Origin: Alphaproteobacteria bacterium | GTDB lineage: Bacteria; Pseudomonadota; Alphaproteobacteria; UBA9219 | Assembly: GCA_026225415.1 (NCBI GenBank) | Contig: JAMFSS010000002.1 | Coordinates: forward strand, 89,915 to 153,914 | DNA length: 64,000 bases | Direction: 5' to 3' | Shown: positions 2,646 to 14,300 of the stretch, one piece after another | Layout of the letters: each line of letters begins with the position of its first letter | Numbering within the stretch: the first letter of the stretch is position 1 | Program-made: the position numbers and the translations under genes | Notes under the pieces: model-generated | Database searches by the model: none | The model's input: the letters and a program-made list of their open reading frames with translations, nothing else | Told to the model about the DNA's origin: nothing

Positions 2646-3323
2646 CTAAGTCAAAATACTTCTCCTTTGCCATTCAAGCTTAGCATCAATCAAATCACTA
2701 AACCAAGCTTCAATGCCTTCTAAGTAATTAGCCAATTTTTCCATACCTTCTGCAAAAACGCGAATATTTATATGAACTAAATCTTCTTTTAATGATGGAA
2801 CATCTTTTGTAATTTTTTTACCTTGTTTTGTGGTTGCATATCGAAACCGCTGCCCATCTGGGTCATGTTCATTTAATTGAGCAATATACCATTCAACTCC
2901 ATCAATATCCTCTAATGCAAAAGGTTCTTCTGGCACTAAAGCACAGACTGGATTGAGTAGCGGCCTAAGAATAGTCCATAAATCATAAAGCCTGTGCCCA
3001 TGAGGGGATTCAAACATGTCTCTATCCAACAAAGATGAAGCGATAATTATGATGGATTTCAAGATTAGCTCTATATGATGCCTATAAAGATAAACAATAG
3101 GATAGACAAGCCTGTCTCTACCATTCTGCGCTTCACACACTTCTTTTGCCAAAGCAAAAGCTGCTGCTCGATACCCTGAGCTATAAGCATATTGCACATC
3201 CCAATGTGCAATAAAGGCATTGGACTGAAAATCATCGCCAAAACCAAAAAGCTTTGGGTCATTTTTATGTGGAGCAGCAATGGGCCCGAATATCGGCGGG
3301 GTTTTTAAAGCATCACCAGGCAT
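2646..3323 (-). CDS. Unknown protein, possibly HEPN-like, AT-rich
   Basis: I do not recognise this 225-residue protein with certainty. The start is taken at the ATG at 3323 because GGGAGG lies 7 bases upstream; a TTG at 3338 is a weaker alternative. It is mostly alpha-helical. The stretch YPIVYLYRHHIELILKSI (about residues 74-91) resembles the Arg-x-x-x-E/His helix of HEPN-fold proteins, but the match is by eye only. There is no signal peptide. Codon and base use are clearly more AT-rich than in icd and pntB on either side, which suggests later acquisition. It occupies a single-gene slot between two core metabolic units and shares the icd terminator. Confidence 0.6.
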   Translation of the reverse strand: MPGDALKTPPIFGPIAAPHKNDPKLFGFGDDFQSNAFIAHWDVQYAYSSGYRAAAFALAKEVCEAQNGRDRLVYPIVYLYRHHIELILKSIIIIASSLLDRDMFESPHGHRLYDLWTILRPLLNPVCALVPEEPFALEDIDGVEWYIAQLNEHDPDGQRFRYATTKQGKKITKDVPSLKEDLVHINIRVFAEGMEKLANYLEGIEAWFSDLIDAKLEWQRRSILT

Positions 3324-3347
3324 ATTCAGACCTCCCAAGAAATCATT

Positions 3348-5617: not shown

Positions 5618-6769
5618 TTACGACAATGGCGCAAATTGCGGATGCACCACGGCGCCCTGATGCGTCAGGGTAACGGCTTTGACAATTTCATCATTCCAAT
5701 CGACAGCCAGCGTGCCGCCGGTTTTGGCGGTGATCAGCGTGACAAAATTCAACAGATTGCGCGCATATAATGCTGACGCATCAACCGCAATGCGGCTGGC
5801 CATATTGCGGTGGCCGATAATTTTGACATGATGCGCTTCGACAATTTTCCCGGCTTCGCTCAGGGCGCAATTACCGCCTTGTTCCACGGCTAAATCGACC
5901 ACAATTGAACCTGGTTTCATGCTTTTCAACATCGCTTCGGAAACCAATTGCGGCGCGGCGCGACCGGGGATAAGGGCGGTGCAAATAACGATATCCTGTT
6001 TCTTGATTGTTTCGGCGATCAGTTCGGCCTGGCGGCGTTTGTAATCGTCGCTCATTTCCTTGGCATAGCCGCCTGCTGTTTCGGCCTGTTTCGTTTCATC
6101 GCTGTCGACCATAACGAATGTCGCGCCCAAACTTTCGACCTGTTCGCGCGCCACGGGGCGCACATCGGTCGCCGACACAATCGCGCCCAATCGGCGCGCC
6201 GTTGCAATGGCCTGCAAACCCGCAACCCCTGCCCCCATGACGAAAACGCGGGCGGGCGGCACGGTGCCGGCTGCTGTCATCATCATCGGGAAGGCGCGGC
6301 CAAATTGTTCCGCCGCATCCAACACGGATTTATATCCCGCCAGATTGGATTGGCTGGATAATACATCCATCGCCTGTGCGCGAGTGATGCGCGGCATAAG
6401 TTCCATTGACATTGATGTGACATCGTTGCGGGCATAGGTTTGCAGGTCTTGCCGCGCGCCATAGGGGTTGAGCATGCCGATCAGCAACGCGCCGTGCTTC
6501 AACAGGCCGGTTTCATTTCGGCCTTCGGCTTCGGTCATCGGGCGTTGGACTTTGAGCACAATATCCGCATCGCGCAGCAAGACTGCCGTATCGCCCACAA
6601 TGCTGGCGCCAGCGGCTGCGTAATATTCGTCGGGGTACGAGGCTTCGCTGCCCGCGCCGGTTTCAACCGCGACATCATAGCCCAGTGCCTTGTATTTCTT
6701 GACCATATCCGGCGTGATCGCCACGCGGCGTTCATAGGGACGGCGTTCTTTGGGGACAGCAATTTTCAT
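5618..6769 (-). CDS. pntAa: NAD(P) transhydrogenase subunit alpha part 1
   Basis: Soluble NAD(H)-binding domain I of the transhydrogenase, homologous to alanine dehydrogenase. It begins MKIAVPKERRPYERRVAITP. The Rossmann segment VFVMGAGVAGLQAIATARRLGA is near residue 165, followed by the SATDVRPVAREQVESLGA loop. About 383 residues is the normal length for the split form. The ATG at 6769 gives the family's typical N-terminus; a GTG two codons upstream is possible. It is the first gene of the operon pntAa - small membrane gene - pntAb - pntB, and is divergent from the large helicase gene. Confidence 0.97.
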   Translation of the reverse strand: MKIAVPKERRPYERRVAITPDMVKKYKALGYDVAVETGAGSEASYPDEYYAAAGASIVGDTAVLLRDADIVLKVQRPMTEAEGRNETGLLKHGALLIGMLNPYGARQDLQTYARNDVTSMSMELMPRITRAQAMDVLSSQSNLAGYKSVLDAAEQFGRAFPMMMTAAGTVPPARVFVMGAGVAGLQAIATARRLGAIVSATDVRPVAREQVESLGATFVMVDSDETKQAETAGGYAKEMSDDYKRRQAELIAETIKKQDIVICTALIPGRAAPQLVSEAMLKSMKPGSIVVDLAVEQGGNCALSEAGKIVEAHHVKIIGHRNMASRIAVDASALYARNLLNFVTLITAKTGGTLAVDWNDEIVKAVTLTHQGAVVHPQFAPLS

Positions 6770-6972
6770 GGGCACCGGGCAAGAATCGATAGGGAACTGA
6801 TTATGTTTTATTTTTAGGGGCTTGGGAAGATTGTTGCGTAGACAATGCTGATAACCATATAATGCTTATTCTTGGGCTAGTTTGCTTTTTAAACATGAAA
6901 CTAATTTAGATGCTGACTTGCAATCCTTGGCTTGCTATCAACTACTATAAACCACCATAAACATTACAAAAA

Positions 6973-9900
6973 ATGACTATTAATTCGACCATTATACAAA
7001 ACGCCGTCCGCCGCAGTCTTCAAGACGGTATGTTGACCGCCCAAGATGCTTTGAACACAGCGCAGATTGAAGCGCTCGAAAGCTATGCAGGATTTTTAAA
7101 TGAATCCGCTGATCCTAACCGCGCCTATGTGGATATGGCGACCGGCACAGGCAAAACAGGTTTGTTTTCCGTTATGGTGCGCCACGCCCACCAGATCGCC
7201 GCAGAGCAAGGATTCGGCGGTGATTTCCGAACGGTGATTGTCGAGCCCACACTCCCCCTCATACGACAGACGCAAGAAAAGCTCATTGCAGCTGCCCCTG
7301 AATTAAAAGGCGCGATAGGTTTATTTGGTGACAGAGAAAAAGACCTCAGCAAGCCCATTTCTATCGTGACTTATGACGCGTGGCTTGGACTGCTAGAAAG
7401 CGGCCAGTTGAACAGCAGCAATGTCAATTTCCACATTCCCGATGAAGCACATCATAGTTTGTCGGAACGCCGCAGAGGTCTTTTTGACGAAAAACTTGCG
7501 GGCGCTATGCATTTCGGCGTCACGGCTTCAGCGCAATATGATGCCGAAAAGAGTGTCGAACTTACATTGCGTAACCGCATATATAAACTTGATCTGCCCG
7601 ACGCTATTGAACGCAGCTTCCTAACAGACTACGCACATATTCAATATTATGTGATGCGTATTCTGCCCGATATGTTGAAAAACAAGCAGGTTGATCTGAG
7701 CAATGGCGATTTCACCCTGATTAAAAGACTAGAATGGGCAAAACTGATAACGCGCGTTTATGCTGACATGGTGGATGGTATCAGCGGCCAACCGCTATCA
7801 GATAAAATCGGCATGATTTTCGCCGCCGACACCCGCGCCGCCGATGGCATGGCTGCACGACTTAACGAAAACCCCGTTCTTAAGCGCAAAGCCCAAGAGC
7901 GTGGCTTTAAGGATGTCGCTGTTTCCATCCATTCGGTTGGACATAGTTCTGCTGTCCAAGACTCATTGCAAGATCAATACCAGAACGGCGAATATATGGT
8001 CGCCGTAGGTGACAAGAAATTTCAGGCTGGCTTTGATCATCCTGCCGTGAAATTCGTAGCGCCTTATCCGGGTGCTTCCCCTGTTGAAGCGATTCAGGAA
8101 ATTGGTCGAGCTACGCGTAAATATACGGACCCACGCACTGGGCAATCGCAAGGCACCGTCATTATTGAGGCTATTCCCTATATTGGTGACGCCGACCCCA
8201 AAAAAGATGAGAAAGCACGTCGGGAAGCGCTTGCCAAAGTTGTGACCGCTTATCAGATTTTGGGTCGCAGCCTTGTTTTCGCTCCGGGTCGGAAACCAGT
8301 ATTGCCTCCGTCCAATGCTCGCTCGAAAGGGAACAAAGGCGGCCACTTTATTCTTTCGCCACAGTGCGAAGTTGATACTTTTATTACAGAAGAAGATACT
8401 CTCACAATAAGCCGCCAGATCGGTGCAGCAAGAAATTACACCAGAAATCTTACCGAAGAGCAAATCCTTCACTGGGTAACCGCGACACACGAAAAGACTG
8501 GCAAACTTCCTGTTGCCGATGATCCAATTATATGGACTAGAAATGACAATGGTGATTTCGAATTAATCGAAGATGAAACATGGCGTGCCGTTGATACTGC
8601 ACTAAAAACAAAAGGCAGAGGCTTACAAAAATCCGATGGATCTGCGATCGCAGCATCATTATATGACCTAAAGCAAAAACATGATTTGGATAAAATTTTA
8701 ACTGTACAAAAGATTATCTCATGGATGAAAGCGACTGAAGAGAAAACTGGCAAATTACCTCTCAGAGGAGACGAAGCCATCTGGTCTAAAAACGACAACG
8801 GTGGCTTTGAATTAATTGAAAACGAAACATGGGCAAAAATTAATTATGCACTGCATAATGGGCGCAAAGGATTAATCAATTCAGATGGTACGATCATTGC
8901 GGATTCTCTCACTGATTTCAAAATTAAATATGGCGTTGTGGATGCCCGCCTTTTGTCTGAAAGACAAATAATTGAATGGCTGTTGGCAACGCACGAAAAG
9001 AACGGACACCCCGTAAAGCGTCGCGATAAAATCGTTTGGTCTAAGGATGCTAAAGGCAATTTTGAAATAGTCTCCGGCGAAAATTGGATAGCTATTGATC
9101 AGGCTCTTCGAGATGGGCAACGTGGGTTAGTTTGTGAAGATGGTTCACCCATCGCCAACTCTTTACATGGCCTTAAAAATAAAAACGACCTTGTAGATCA
9201 GCCAACGTTATTAAAAAGCACTGAGCGCACGACTAGTGGCATTGGAAAAGTTTTAAAACCAGCAGCTCAAGAAATTGGCAAGCTAACTAATGATATTTTA
9301 GGACACGCCGAACATGATCTAAAAAAGAGGCATGGCCTCAATCAGAATTCTAGATTGGACGAAGGACACATTGTTAAATGGATTAAAGACACCTACGAAA
9401 AAACAGGCAAGATTCCCGGAGCTAAAGATAAAGATGTCTGGGCTAAGGATGCTTTAGGGCAATTTACTTTAGTTGAAGGTGAAACCTGGCGAGCAATAGA
9501 CCATGCTCTTACGAGGAGACATCGCGGATTAACAAATGAGGATGAAACATTTATCGCCCGATCTTTAATGGGTCTGAAAATTAAACATGGATTAGATTAC
9601 AGCAAGCTTACGGAAGATCAGATTCTTGAATGGATAAGTGCTACTTTTGAGAAAACAGGTAAATACCCATCTAAGGCGACACACACTCCTGTCTGGACTC
9701 GCCAGAATGGAGGGCTTTCTGTTGTAGATGGCGAACAATGGGCCGCAATAGATAAGGCGATAAAATATGGTTATCGTAGATTGGTTAAAAGTGATGGTTC
9801 CAAGATTGCAGCAGGCCTTGCCGATTTAAAAAGAAAACATGGATTTGTTGATGAGCCTGCTTCTAATGTGAAGCCATCACCTAAGCAAAACGATGCAATC

Positions 9901-11100
9901 ATATTGCCATCGCCCCCATCCATACTTGTCGACCCCGCAGAAATAGCCCGCAAAACGGTAACGGATCTTTTTGCTGAACTTTCTGGAAAATTGCTTGCGG
10001 ATGTCTCTATGATTGTCGAGCAGCTAAGGCCACAGCCTGTGCCGACCGTGGAAGACGCGCCATCCGTCGCAGTCGAATTACCGCGCCAGAAACGCAAATA
10101 CACCAAGCGCACAGCGGTCAAAACAGAGGCTGAAAGCTCTCCTAAATCTGGTGCAGTTGTCTTTAACGCGCCATTATTTGAAGCCAAAGACAATGCAGGT
10201 ATAAACATGCAGACCTGCCTCGTAAATGCGGAACGTGCAGCTAGCTACGAAGATTTAATTGGCGTGCGCGGCAATCTGCAAAAATTCGCCGAACTCCTTA
10301 TCCATCACTCCATGCTTGGCATGCAGCAATTTCTAGCAAATCTAGAAATTGAAGCAAATACAAGAAAAGGCATAGAGGATACCATTAAGCAGTATCGCAA
10401 TGATTTTGCTTCACGAACTGCGCAGACTGATTCACTCGCTTCTTTTAGAAAAGTCGCAGTTGATCTTAAAGATCATCCCTCGGGCGCATTGCCTTCGTCG
10501 ATATATTTTGGATTGCGTAAACTGTCAAATGTAGCGGCGAATAGCTCCACCGAGCTACTAGACATAGCCTTCCAGATTGCCCAATGGTTCGATGCGTCTT
10601 TTTGTCGCAAGGTTGAATTGTCTGCGACTGCAAAGGCTGAACCCGATCTCAAACCCCAAGCAATCATTGAACATATCAAACAACCGGAAACCGTCGTTAT
10701 TCCAGCGAGCATGTTAAAAGTTTTAGGGCTTACCGCCGAACAAATGGATGCGGTTAAGGACACGAACGCGGGCCAGATCATCACCCATTTTGTTGAGCAT
10801 TTGGCCGAAGAGCCTCCAGCAATCAAACAAACGCGCAATGCACACGCGCAAATGGCCTACCAGGCTGTCGCCCCTGTTGTGAAAGACATGGTGGGCAATG
10901 GAAAAAATATTCAAGAAGTGATCGATGAATTGAATAGATTAGAGGATATGAGCGCCTCTGTGAGAGAGCCAACTCAATGGAGAGTTGGATTGCTGTTGCG
11001 TGGCGTGGTTCTCAATCGCGGCTCCTTGCCTTTTAGCGCTTTTGAACTGGAGAGGCCGACGCAATCTAGAATGCGTAATGATAGGAAAAACAAGCTTTAG
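6973..11100 (+). CDS. Large SF2 (DEAD/DEAH) helicase with five tandem ~84-residue repeats
   Basis: A 1375-residue protein. Residues ~20-440 form a superfamily 2 helicase core: Walker A MATGTGKT (about 55-62), DEAH box at 157-160, motif III TAS (~185), and motif VI QEIGRATR (375-382). A linker leads to five repeats (~492-960) with the pattern I--W---T-EKTGK-P, then VW, then ETW-AID-AL, then RGL---DGS-IA-SL--LK-KHGL. A shortened remnant lies between repeats 3 and 4. The C-terminal ~400 residues hold a basic patch (RQKRKYTKR near 1037) and then mostly helical sequence I cannot assign. No methyltransferase or nuclease motif is evident, and no partner gene adjoins. Base use in the repeats is more AT-rich than in the flanks. 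The upstream 197 bp should hold its promoter; there is no strong Shine-Dalgarno. A DNA-defence or DNA-repair role is possible but unproven. Confidence 0.88.
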   Translation: MTINSTIIQNAVRRSLQDGMLTAQDALNTAQIEALESYAGFLNESADPNRAYVDMATGTGKTGLFSVMVRHAHQIAAEQGFGGDFRTVIVEPTLPLIRQTQEKLIAAAPELKGAIGLFGDREKDLSKPISIVTYDAWLGLLESGQLNSSNVNFHIPDEAHHSLSERRRGLFDEKLAGAMHFGVTASAQYDAEKSVELTLRNRIYKLDLPDAIERSFLTDYAHIQYYVMRILPDMLKNKQVDLSNGDFTLIKRLEWAKLITRVYADMVDGISGQPLSDKIGMIFAADTRAADGMAARLNENPVLKRKAQERGFKDVAVSIHSVGHSSAVQDSLQDQYQNGEYMVAVGDKKFQAGFDHPAVKFVAPYPGASPVEAIQEIGRATRKYTDPRTGQSQGTVIIEAIPYIGDADPKKDEKARREALAKVVTAYQILGRSLVFAPGRKPVLPPSNARSKGNKGGHFILSPQCEVDTFITEEDTLTISRQIGAARNYTRNLTEEQILHWVTATHEKTGKLPVADDPIIWTRNDNGDFELIEDETWRAVDTALKTKGRGLQKSDGSAIAASLYDLKQKHDLDKILTVQKIISWMKATEEKTGKLPLRGDEAIWSKNDNGGFELIENETWAKINYALHNGRKGLINSDGTIIADSLTDFKIKYGVVDARLLSERQIIEWLLATHEKNGHPVKRRDKIVWSKDAKGNFEIVSGENWIAIDQALRDGQRGLVCEDGSPIANSLHGLKNKNDLVDQPTLLKSTERTTSGIGKVLKPAAQEIGKLTNDILGHAEHDLKKRHGLNQNSRLDEGHIVKWIKDTYEKTGKIPGAKDKDVWAKDALGQFTLVEGETWRAIDHALTRRHRGLTNEDETFIARSLMGLKIKHGLDYSKLTEDQILEWISATFEKTGKYPSKATHTPVWTRQNGGLSVVDGEQWAAIDKAIKYGYRRLVKSDGSKIAAGLADLKRKHGFVDEPASNVKPSPKQNDAIILPSPPSILVDPAEIARKTVTDLFAELSGKLLADVSMIVEQLRPQPVPTVEDAPSVAVELPRQKRKYTKRTAVKTEAESSPKSGAVVFNAPLFEAKDNAGINMQTCLVNAERAASYEDLIGVRGNLQKFAELLIHHSMLGMQQFLANLEIEANTRKGIEDTIKQYRNDFASRTAQTDSLASFRKVAVDLKDHPSGALPSSIYFGLRKLSNVAANSSTELLDIAFQIAQWFDASFCRKVELSATAKAEPDLKPQAIIEHIKQPETVVIPASMLKVLGLTAEQMDAVKDTNAGQIITHFVEHLAEEPPAIKQTRNAHAQMAYQAVAPVVKDMVGNGKNIQEVIDELNRLEDMSASVREPTQWRVGLLLRGVVLNRGSLPFSAFELERPTQSRMRNDRKNKL
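8446..9852 (+). repeat. Five tandem ~84-codon repeats inside the helicase gene
   Basis: Repeat starts fall at 8446, 8695 and 8950, then after a ~48-codon degenerate spacer at 9349 and 9601. Each unit carries an EKTGK or EKNGH box, a VW/IW box, an E(T/N/Q)W box and an IA-SL--LK box. The periods of 249-255 bases show units of 83-85 codons. The spacer between units 3 and 4 (EIGKLTNDILGHAEHDLKKR) retains the end of a unit, so it looks like an eroded copy. The layout resembles helicase-associated or homing-endonuclease-associated repeats, which are DNA-binding; that parallel is inference. Confidence 0.85.
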
Positions 11101-11313: not shown

Positions 11314-14300
11314 ATGTGGATTGTGCGCATTGCGTTGGGGCGGCCTTATACCTTTGTCGTGCTGGCTATTCTGCTGTTGATTTTCGGGCCGTTAAGCGTC
11401 GCGAAAACGCCTATCGATATTTTTCCAAATATTGGTATTCCGGTTGTCGCCACGATCTGGAATTTCGGCGGATTGCCGCCCGATGAAATGGCCAACCGTA
11501 TTGTCGGCACCTATGAACGATCCCTGACCACCACTGTCAATGATATCGAACATATTGAATCGCAATCATTGTCCGGTATTGCCGTTGTTAAAACCTTTTT
11601 CCATCCCGGCGTTAAAAGCGATATGGCAATGGCCCAGACAACCGCTATTGCCCAGACACAGTTACGCTCTCTACCGCAAGGCGCCACGCCGCCTTTCATC
11701 ACCATCTATAACGCTTCGAGCGTGCCGGTTATGCAATTGGCCTTATCGAGCAACACGTTGTCTGAGCAGGAATTATTCGACACCGGCACCAATACAATTC
11801 GGACACAGTTGGCGACCGTTCAGGGCGCGGCATTACCCAACCCCTATGGCGGTAAAATGCGCCAGATTCAGGTCGATTTGGATCAGCAAAAACTGCAAGC
11901 GCTGGGGTTATCGGCACAGGATGTCAACACCGCCATCGGCAACCAAAACCTTATTTTGCCGTCGGGCACCGAGAAAATCGGCGATTATGAATATAACGTG
12001 AAATTGAATGCCAGCCCGACTGTGGTGGATGATTTCAACAATCTGCCGATTAAGGCTGTGAATGGCACCACCATTTACATCCGCGATGTTGCACATGTGC
12101 GCGATGGTTTTGCGCCGCAAACCAACATTGTGCGCGTTGACGGGAAACGCGCCGTGTTGATGACGGTGCTGAAAACCGGCGATTCATCGACGCTTGATAT
12201 TATCTCGCGCGTCAAAAGCAAGGTTGAACAATTCCGTGGCAGCCTGCCGCCCGGCCTTGATCTGCATATCATCGGCGATCAATCGGTTTTTGTGCGCGCC
12301 GCCATTTCGGGCGTGGTGCGCGAAGGCATTATCGCCGCCACCCTGACCGGCTTTATGATTTTGCTGTTTTTGGGAAGCTGGCGCAGCACGTTGATTATCA
12401 CTCTGTCCATTCCACTTTCCATTCTTGCGTCATTAATGGCGTTATCTGCCTTGGGCGAAACGATCAACATTATGACTTTGGGCGGGCTGGCACTGGCGGT
12501 TGGTATTTTGGTCGATGATGCGACTGTGGCCGTTGAAAACATCAACTGGCATCTGGAACATGGCAAGGATGTCGAAGAGGCCATTTTGGATGGCGCGCAG
12601 CAAATCGCCATTCCCGCTTTGGTGTCCACACTGTGTATTTGCATCGTGTTCATCCCGATGTTTTTCCTGAGCGGCGTTGCGCGTTATCTGTTCGTGCCGC
12701 TGGCCGAAGCCGTCATGTTCGCCATGCTGGCGTCTTATTTCCTGTCGCGCACCCTTGTGCCGACGATGGCCAAATATCTTTTGCACAAGCATGAAGAAAA
12801 AAATGAACATGCGCCGAAATCGAAAAACATCCTGGTGCGCGGGCAGTTGGAATTTGAGCGCCGGTTTGAATCTTTCCGCGACGGCTATCATGACTATTTA
12901 AAAAAGACGCTGGATCATCGTGGTCTTTTTATCACGATTTTTCTGGGCTTTGTGTTGTTGTCTGTGGCGGCGTTGGGGCCGTGGTTGGGGTCGGATTTTT
13001 TCCCGTCCGTCGATGCCGGGCAAATTAAATTACATTTCCGCGCCCATACCGGCACGCGCGTCGAAGAAACGGCGGCTTTGTGCGATAACGTCGATACGAT
13101 TATTCACAGCGTCATTCCGCAATCCGATCTGGACAGCGTTACGCATAATATCGGCATCCCGAACAGCGGCATTAACTTGACATACAGTAACTCCGCGCCC
13201 ATTGGGCCGGCGGATGCCGATATTTTGATTTCCTTGAATGAAGACCATAAACCCACGGCGGATTATGTGCGCACGTTACGCGAAAAACTGAACGAAAAAA
13301 TGCCGGGCGTTTTATTCACCTTCCTGCCCGCCGATATGGTCAGCCAGATTTTGAATTTCGGACTGCCCGCGCCAATTGATATTCAGATTATCGGCGCCAA
13401 TGCCGACAACCGGAAATATGCCGAAGAATTGTTGGAGAAAATCGTGCATATCCCCGGCGTGGTCGATAGCCGCCTTCACCAACCCGACGATGCGCCCGAA
13501 TTCCGCATTAAGGTCGACCGCACGCGCGCCGAAGAATTGGGCATCACCCAACATGATGTGGCCAGCAATTTGCTGATATCGCTTTCCGGCAGCTTCCAGA
13601 CATCCCCGACTTTCTGGCTCGATCCGAAAAACGGCGTTTCCTATTCCGTTGTGACGCAAACGCCGCAATACCGTTTGGAAAGCCTCGATGATTTGCGCAA
13701 CATCCCCGTTGTCGGATTAAAGGGCAGCCAGCAGATTATGGGTGGCCTTGCGACAATCGAACGCGGCGTTGGCCCCGGTGTTGTTTCGCATTACAACGCG
13801 CAACCCGTGTTGGATGTTTTCGCCAATGTGCAGGATCGCGATTTGGGCGGCGCGTCTGCCGACATCAAGAAAATTTTAAAAGACACCGCGAAAGATGTGC
13901 CCAAGGGAACCATGGTCATTCCGCGCGGCCAGATGGAAACGATGGATAGTAGTTTTACCGGCCTTTATCTTGGTTTGCTCGGCGCGATTGTCTTGGTTTA
14001 TTTCCTCATCGTCGTGAATTTCCAATCATGGACGGATCCGTTTATTATCATCACCGCATTGCCGGGTGCGATTGCGGGCATTGCGTGGATGTTGTTCCTT
14101 ACCCACACGACACTCAGCGTGCCGGCTTTGACTGGCGCCATTATGTGTATGGGCGTGGCAACGGCCAATTCTATTCTGGTGGTCAGCTATGCCCGCGAAC
14201 GCATGACGCATGGCGATGATGCGTTGAAGGCCGCGTTGGAAGCGGGATTCACGCGGTTGCGCCCCGTTATGATGACAGCGCTGGCAATGATTATTGGTAT

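Follow-up and report, generated by a model that had tools for sequence, protein, structure and literature searches.

A putative SF2 helicase with an undescribed five-repeat module and a motor shared by a patchy group of alphaproteobacterial proteins

SF2 enzymes are established to hydrolyze ATP and to move along nucleic acid. In the helicases with HA (PF03457) repeats, a known plan is observed, in which the SF2 motor is followed by several mostly helical C-terminal modules of ~70–85 aa. A different arrangement was described for PbeA, in which an HKD nuclease and an SF2 helicase form one fused protein encoded in an operon (PMC10853773). The gene analyzed here occupies positions 6973–11100 (+) of the window, i.e., of the whole 64,000-nucleotide stretch of DNA from an Alphaproteobacteria bacterium that was studied, and represents a single intact ORF of 1375 aa with no internal stop.

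The helicase core of the SF2/ResIII type (residues about 27–430; 7051..8262, +) was recognized by PF04851 with an E-value of 3.6e-14 (53.5 bits; cut-off 22.5) and by alignment with seven relatives. The Pfam matches to ResIII and DEAD (E 3.7e-8) cover residues 27–185; Helicase_C was missed by Pfam and was seen only through the family alignment. All the motifs listed in a preliminary description of this DNA, namely GTGKT (Walker A), DEAH, TAS, and QEIGRATR, were found in the protein, which, judging from its sequence, is an SF2 helicase of the ResIII type. Past motif VI, a short segment (FITEEDTL in the window protein) is common to most of the aligned relatives before their tails start. The post-core segment placed by the alignment at residues 464–486 (CEVDTFITEEDTLTISRQIGAAR; 8362..8430, +) has similar counterparts preceding the arrays or tails of the relatives.

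The motor is followed by the array described earlier as five repeats of ~84 aa, and a profile search recovered exactly five significant units with 102–112 bits each. Three tandem copies, namely repeat 1 (residues 492–574; 8446..8694, +; 111.9 bits), repeat 2 (residues 575–659; 8695..8949, +; 107.3 bits), and repeat 3 (residues 660–743; 8950..9201, +; 112.4 bits), are separated by a 50-aa linker (residues 744–793; 9202..9351, +) from two further tandem copies, repeat 4 (residues 794–877; 9352..9603, +; 110.3 bits) and repeat 5 (residues 878–962; 9604..9858, +; 102.0 bits). The start-to-start spacing was 83, 85, 134, and 84. A sixth, eroded copy had also been proposed; the linker gave no profile match, and this copy was dropped. 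The pairwise identity of the five units was 41–51%, which is 15–22 s.d. above that of shuffled copies, and an independent profile built from IMG/VR sequences only matched all of them (E 1.5e-9, obtained for repeat 1, to 1.1e-6). Their DNA sequences share only 50–57% identity, indicating that the array is old.

No model in Pfam, NCBIfam, PADLOC, or PHROGs matched the repeat above the cut-off, and among PDB sequences neither the repeat nor the C-terminal tail of the helicase was matched above the cut-off. The searches for known families of the repeat and the tail gave a sub-threshold CATASP signal (E 4.8e-6), in which no individual stretch was significant. The repeats had been likened to helicase-associated or homing-endonuclease-associated ones. 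Membership in the HA (PF03457) repeats was not supported, with no match for the five-repeat region up to E 1 or for the whole protein up to E 10, and the repeats also gave no Pfam match that would place them among the homing-endonuclease-associated repeats. The five-repeat module is an undescribed protein module that has no name in the databases. Using 15 window and IMG/VR sequences as input, an AF2 model of repeat 4 was obtained, in which a helix (6–20) is followed by two strands (32–34 and 40–42) and two further helices (48–58 and 74–80); the mean pLDDT was 83 for the best model and 64–73 for the other four. The predicted fold of the repeat is helix, beta-hairpin, helix, helix. A Foldseek search with the model against PDB and BFVD gave nothing significant, and VIA returned a single PDB chain, a winged-helix regulator, with a Z of 2.1, which is too weak to use.

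The C-terminal tail of 410 aa (residues 966–1375; 9868..11100, +) had been presented as basic and as having no nameable family. The latter was confirmed, with the tail unmatched in family and PDB-sequence searches and no known relative found. The tail is, however, neutral (50 K+R vs. 50 D+E; pI 7.2). The single-sequence model of this part had a pLDDT of 39 and was unusable.

The long form of the repeat was found in 2 of the 33 genomes of the order. A second protein of the same genome (733 aa; C1, L008:8885-11086), whose gene is flanked by rpoD and the gene of formate-tetrahydrofolate ligase (fhs), has a 245-aa N-terminal part assigned to no family, followed by five copies of the long repeat. 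The gene of this paralogue is AT-rich (GC3 0.36), and its 3′ end overlaps a gene of an HTH_3 regulator (8449-8919). Elsewhere in the order, the repeat was detected only in G031, in a 315-aa protein with three copies of the long form, and, by eye, at a contig end of G026. The G026 protein (L069:4975-5898), which is encoded beside lon, has its counterpart of the middle domain in common with the paralogue (31% over 97 aa, E 1.8e-12); a short-form repeat was recognized by eye at the end of the G026 protein. Thus, the middle domain plus repeats represents a second architecture in the order.

The short form, of ~74 aa, occurs as five tandem copies in each of the IMG/VR contigs L027 and L028; such arrays are presumably common in Planctomycetes, which we treat as a lead only. 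The two forms were related with an hhalign probability of 99% (E 3.5e-18), and the relation was reciprocal: the long-form profile found L027 and L028, and the A3 profile found all five window repeats. The repeat copies were more alike within the proteins (45% in the window protein and 61% in the paralogue) than between them (30%), which fits the growth of each array through separate duplications; no such within-protein excess of identity was seen for the copies of G031. Beyond its own genome, the long form was not found among 385 class genomes and 299 phylum genomes, and among 319 phylum genomes, the short-form profile revealed no convincing array outside the own genome. A DNA signature of the long repeat gave six matches among 84,980 species genomes, all in unrelated proteins; because the signature required exact spacing, this result argues only weakly for absence. 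In the phage collection, neither the whole window protein nor the repeats had a match, and in the plasmid collection the repeats and the tail were unmatched and only two matches to the motor were obtained. The viral contigs searched with alignment A2 and with the whole protein gave nothing.

In a motor search of the 385 class genomes, strong or moderate matches came from four further genomes; additional relatives were plasmid proteins from Bosea and Methylobacterium and a protein of the order-mate G032. The motor of G267 is 35% identical to that of the window over 441 aa (E 4e-79), and the closest motor, L097 (35%), has no array. Against a profile of eight motors, the members scored 467–551 bits (505 bits for the window motor), the next genome 199 bits, and other helicases 138 bits or less; since the profile was built from the members themselves, including the window protein, its informative feature is the gap below them alone. 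These motors form a rare and patchy alphaproteobacterial helicase group, apart from other helicases.

The attachments behind the motors differed. The helicase of G389, a strongly reduced 0.9-Mb genome, carries six very regular 72-aa repeats (L099:6951-9776), L100 carries at least five repeats of 79–84 aa, and the Methylobacterium plasmid protein carries six repeats of ~82 aa; in all three arrays, every copy was recognized by the profile of the other copies, far above 200 shuffles. The repeat number among relatives, whose comparison had been proposed in the preliminary description, could thus be counted, but the units belong to other repeats: their relationship to the window repeats was undetectable (hhalign probability below 1%). 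The Bosea protein has candidate repeat units, for which the test was not significant. On its plasmid, pANAM02 (L049:1-11165), this motor relative lies near genes of a DNA methyltransferase, an ATP-binding protein, and a RecD-like ATPase, the last of which matches several PADLOC candidate models; the segment is possibly a restriction-like locus. In the helicase of G032 (L010:5981-8317), a C-terminal Sigma70_r4 domain was detected (E 6.9e-6), and a C-terminal stretch resembling sigma-70 region 4 was recognized by eye in the helicase of G232 (L098:7048-9603). The simplest reading that these comparisons suggest is one motor with exchangeable attachments, resulting from true exchange or from the independent growth of arrays.

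As had been noted, the window gene stands alone among transhydrogenase and efflux genes: pntA (5618-6775) is divergent from it upstream, and an RND efflux operon begins downstream at 11314. Both the transhydrogenase operon and the efflux pump are flanked by different genes in the nine same-genus genomes, so that an empty site is not demonstrable; the helicase gene is not part of a conserved context. No direct repeats beyond chance flank the gene, and no ortholog of the whole protein was found in the nine same-genus genomes or in the other genomes of the order that were searched. The repeats are indeed AT-richer (GC 0.41 vs. 0.50 in the core and 0.48 in the tail), with a GC3 of 0.30–0.35 compared to 0.48 in the motor and 0.46 in the tail, and the GC3 of the whole gene is 0.42 vs. 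0.55–0.64 for most neighbors. The absence from relatives, the other context of the flanking operons, which are joined elsewhere to other genes, and the deviating, low GC3 support acquisition, as does the patchy distribution, and the gene was probably acquired from outside, in line with the earlier suggestion. Another candidate for an acquired gene is an orphan of 230 aa between icd and pntB (2646-3338, −), which has a GC of 0.39, a GC3 of 0.29, and no Pfam match.

We give an even chance to the explanation that the protein is a single-polypeptide, ATP-driven DNA translocase or helicase of a rare SF2 (ResIII) subgroup, with an exchangeable and probably nucleic-acid-binding array behind a conserved motor. 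By analogy with SF2 enzymes, the motor presumably hydrolyzes ATP and moves along nucleic acid, and the array, located at the same junction as the attachments of several relatives, would most likely hold or read nucleic acid during pumping. The array probably anchors or aims the motor, because HTH-like or sigma-like domains take the same position in the relatives and the HA helicases provide a known plan. We infer that the window protein is catalytically active, that its repeats bind nucleic acid, and that it has an accessory role in DNA processing or DNA surveillance. The idea of the preliminary description that the repeats are DNA-reading modules is plausible, since the relatives carry at this place other arrays, some of them HTH-like, or sigma-region-4 tails. 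A bolder version, in which one-gene DNA motors possess a replaceable reading-head cassette, each lineage retargets the same engine, and the five-repeat module is a new modular nucleic-acid reader, must be considered unlikely.

Some of the observations point away from a nucleic-acid-reading array. Units 1–3 are acidic (pI 5.8), although units 4–5 have a pI of 9.2, and no DNA-binding fold was matched confidently; as the repeats are not uniformly basic and no such fold was found, they could bind protein instead. The module also occurs without a helicase, in other proteins, either alone or behind another domain that belongs to no known family. It could then be a protein-binding scaffold module in a helicase whose substrate is RNA or a partner complex, with no DNA reading involved; we consider this quite unlikely, since the HTH-like and sigma-like domains found in the same position in the relatives favor nucleic acid. 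The same domains, namely Sigma70_r4 in the G032 relative and the similar tail seen by eye in the G232 relative, would agree with a remodeler linked to transcription or replication, whose array would direct the motor to promoters or to the polymerase. However, the window protein has no Sigma70_r4 domain, and the absence from all same-genus genomes does not fit a conserved housekeeping role, so that this alternative seems very unlikely.

A defense role, which had been suggested in the preliminary description, would imply a single-gene anti-phage or anti-plasmid system, in which DNA that is foreign or modified is recognized by the array and then destroyed or displaced by the motor and a nuclease concealed in the unassigned tail. 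The patchy distribution, the atypical composition, and the solitary position of the gene agree with this, and PADLOC matched the window motor, chiefly to PbeA (E 7e-7; relatives down to E 9e-20). Nevertheless, these matches are weak and do not extend beyond the motor, no defense genes were found beside the window gene or the inspected chromosomal relatives, and the latter sit singly among housekeeping-type genes rather than in defense islands. The Bosea plasmid relative, with its DNA methyltransferase and RecD-like ATPase, is the only one with restriction-like neighbors. In addition, the HKD motif is absent, no nuclease family was found, the repeats were unmatched in the phage and plasmid collections, and the tail was unmatched in plasmids. 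A defense system is therefore rather unlikely, and the translocase or helicase with an exchangeable array is preferred. Should its array read nucleic acid, the module would count as a new repeat-based binder; a comparison of the relatives would then show directly how the exchange of arrays retargets one motor. Even otherwise, the repeat is an undescribed mobile module with no database name yet, and the helicase group provides a defined set of proteins for testing it.

In comparison with the known systems, PbeA has weak motor similarity to the window helicase; however, PbeA possesses an HKD nuclease, whereas the window protein has neither the HxKxxxxD motif nor a nuclease profile match, and PbeA is encoded in an operon with PbeB, PbeC, and PbeD, unlike the window gene with its transhydrogenase and efflux neighbors. 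The standard motifs of the window motor are the same as in the ResIII SF2 helicases (PF04851), i.e., the motors of type III Res and type I HsdR; unlike these, the window protein has no modification partner and no detected nuclease, and it carries a C-terminal repeat array. No linked modification or specificity subunit of type I or III restriction was seen by eye among the ORFs at 1-22196. The overall plan is shared with the HA-repeat helicases, but the window repeats have no PF03457 match. By the features tested, the window protein does not appear to be an HA-repeat helicase, a homing-endonuclease-associated repeat protein, PbeA, or a restriction subunit. The short-form arrays of L027 and L028 consist of a homologous module in five tandem copies, like the window array, but have no helicase in the same ORF and lack the ~10-residue insert that the long-form model shows as a beta-hairpin. 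The relatives L097, L098, L099, L100, and L010 and the Methylobacterium and Bosea proteins share the motor and, in most cases, the post-core segment with the window protein, and differ from it in having other arrays, HTH- or sigma-like tails, or no array.
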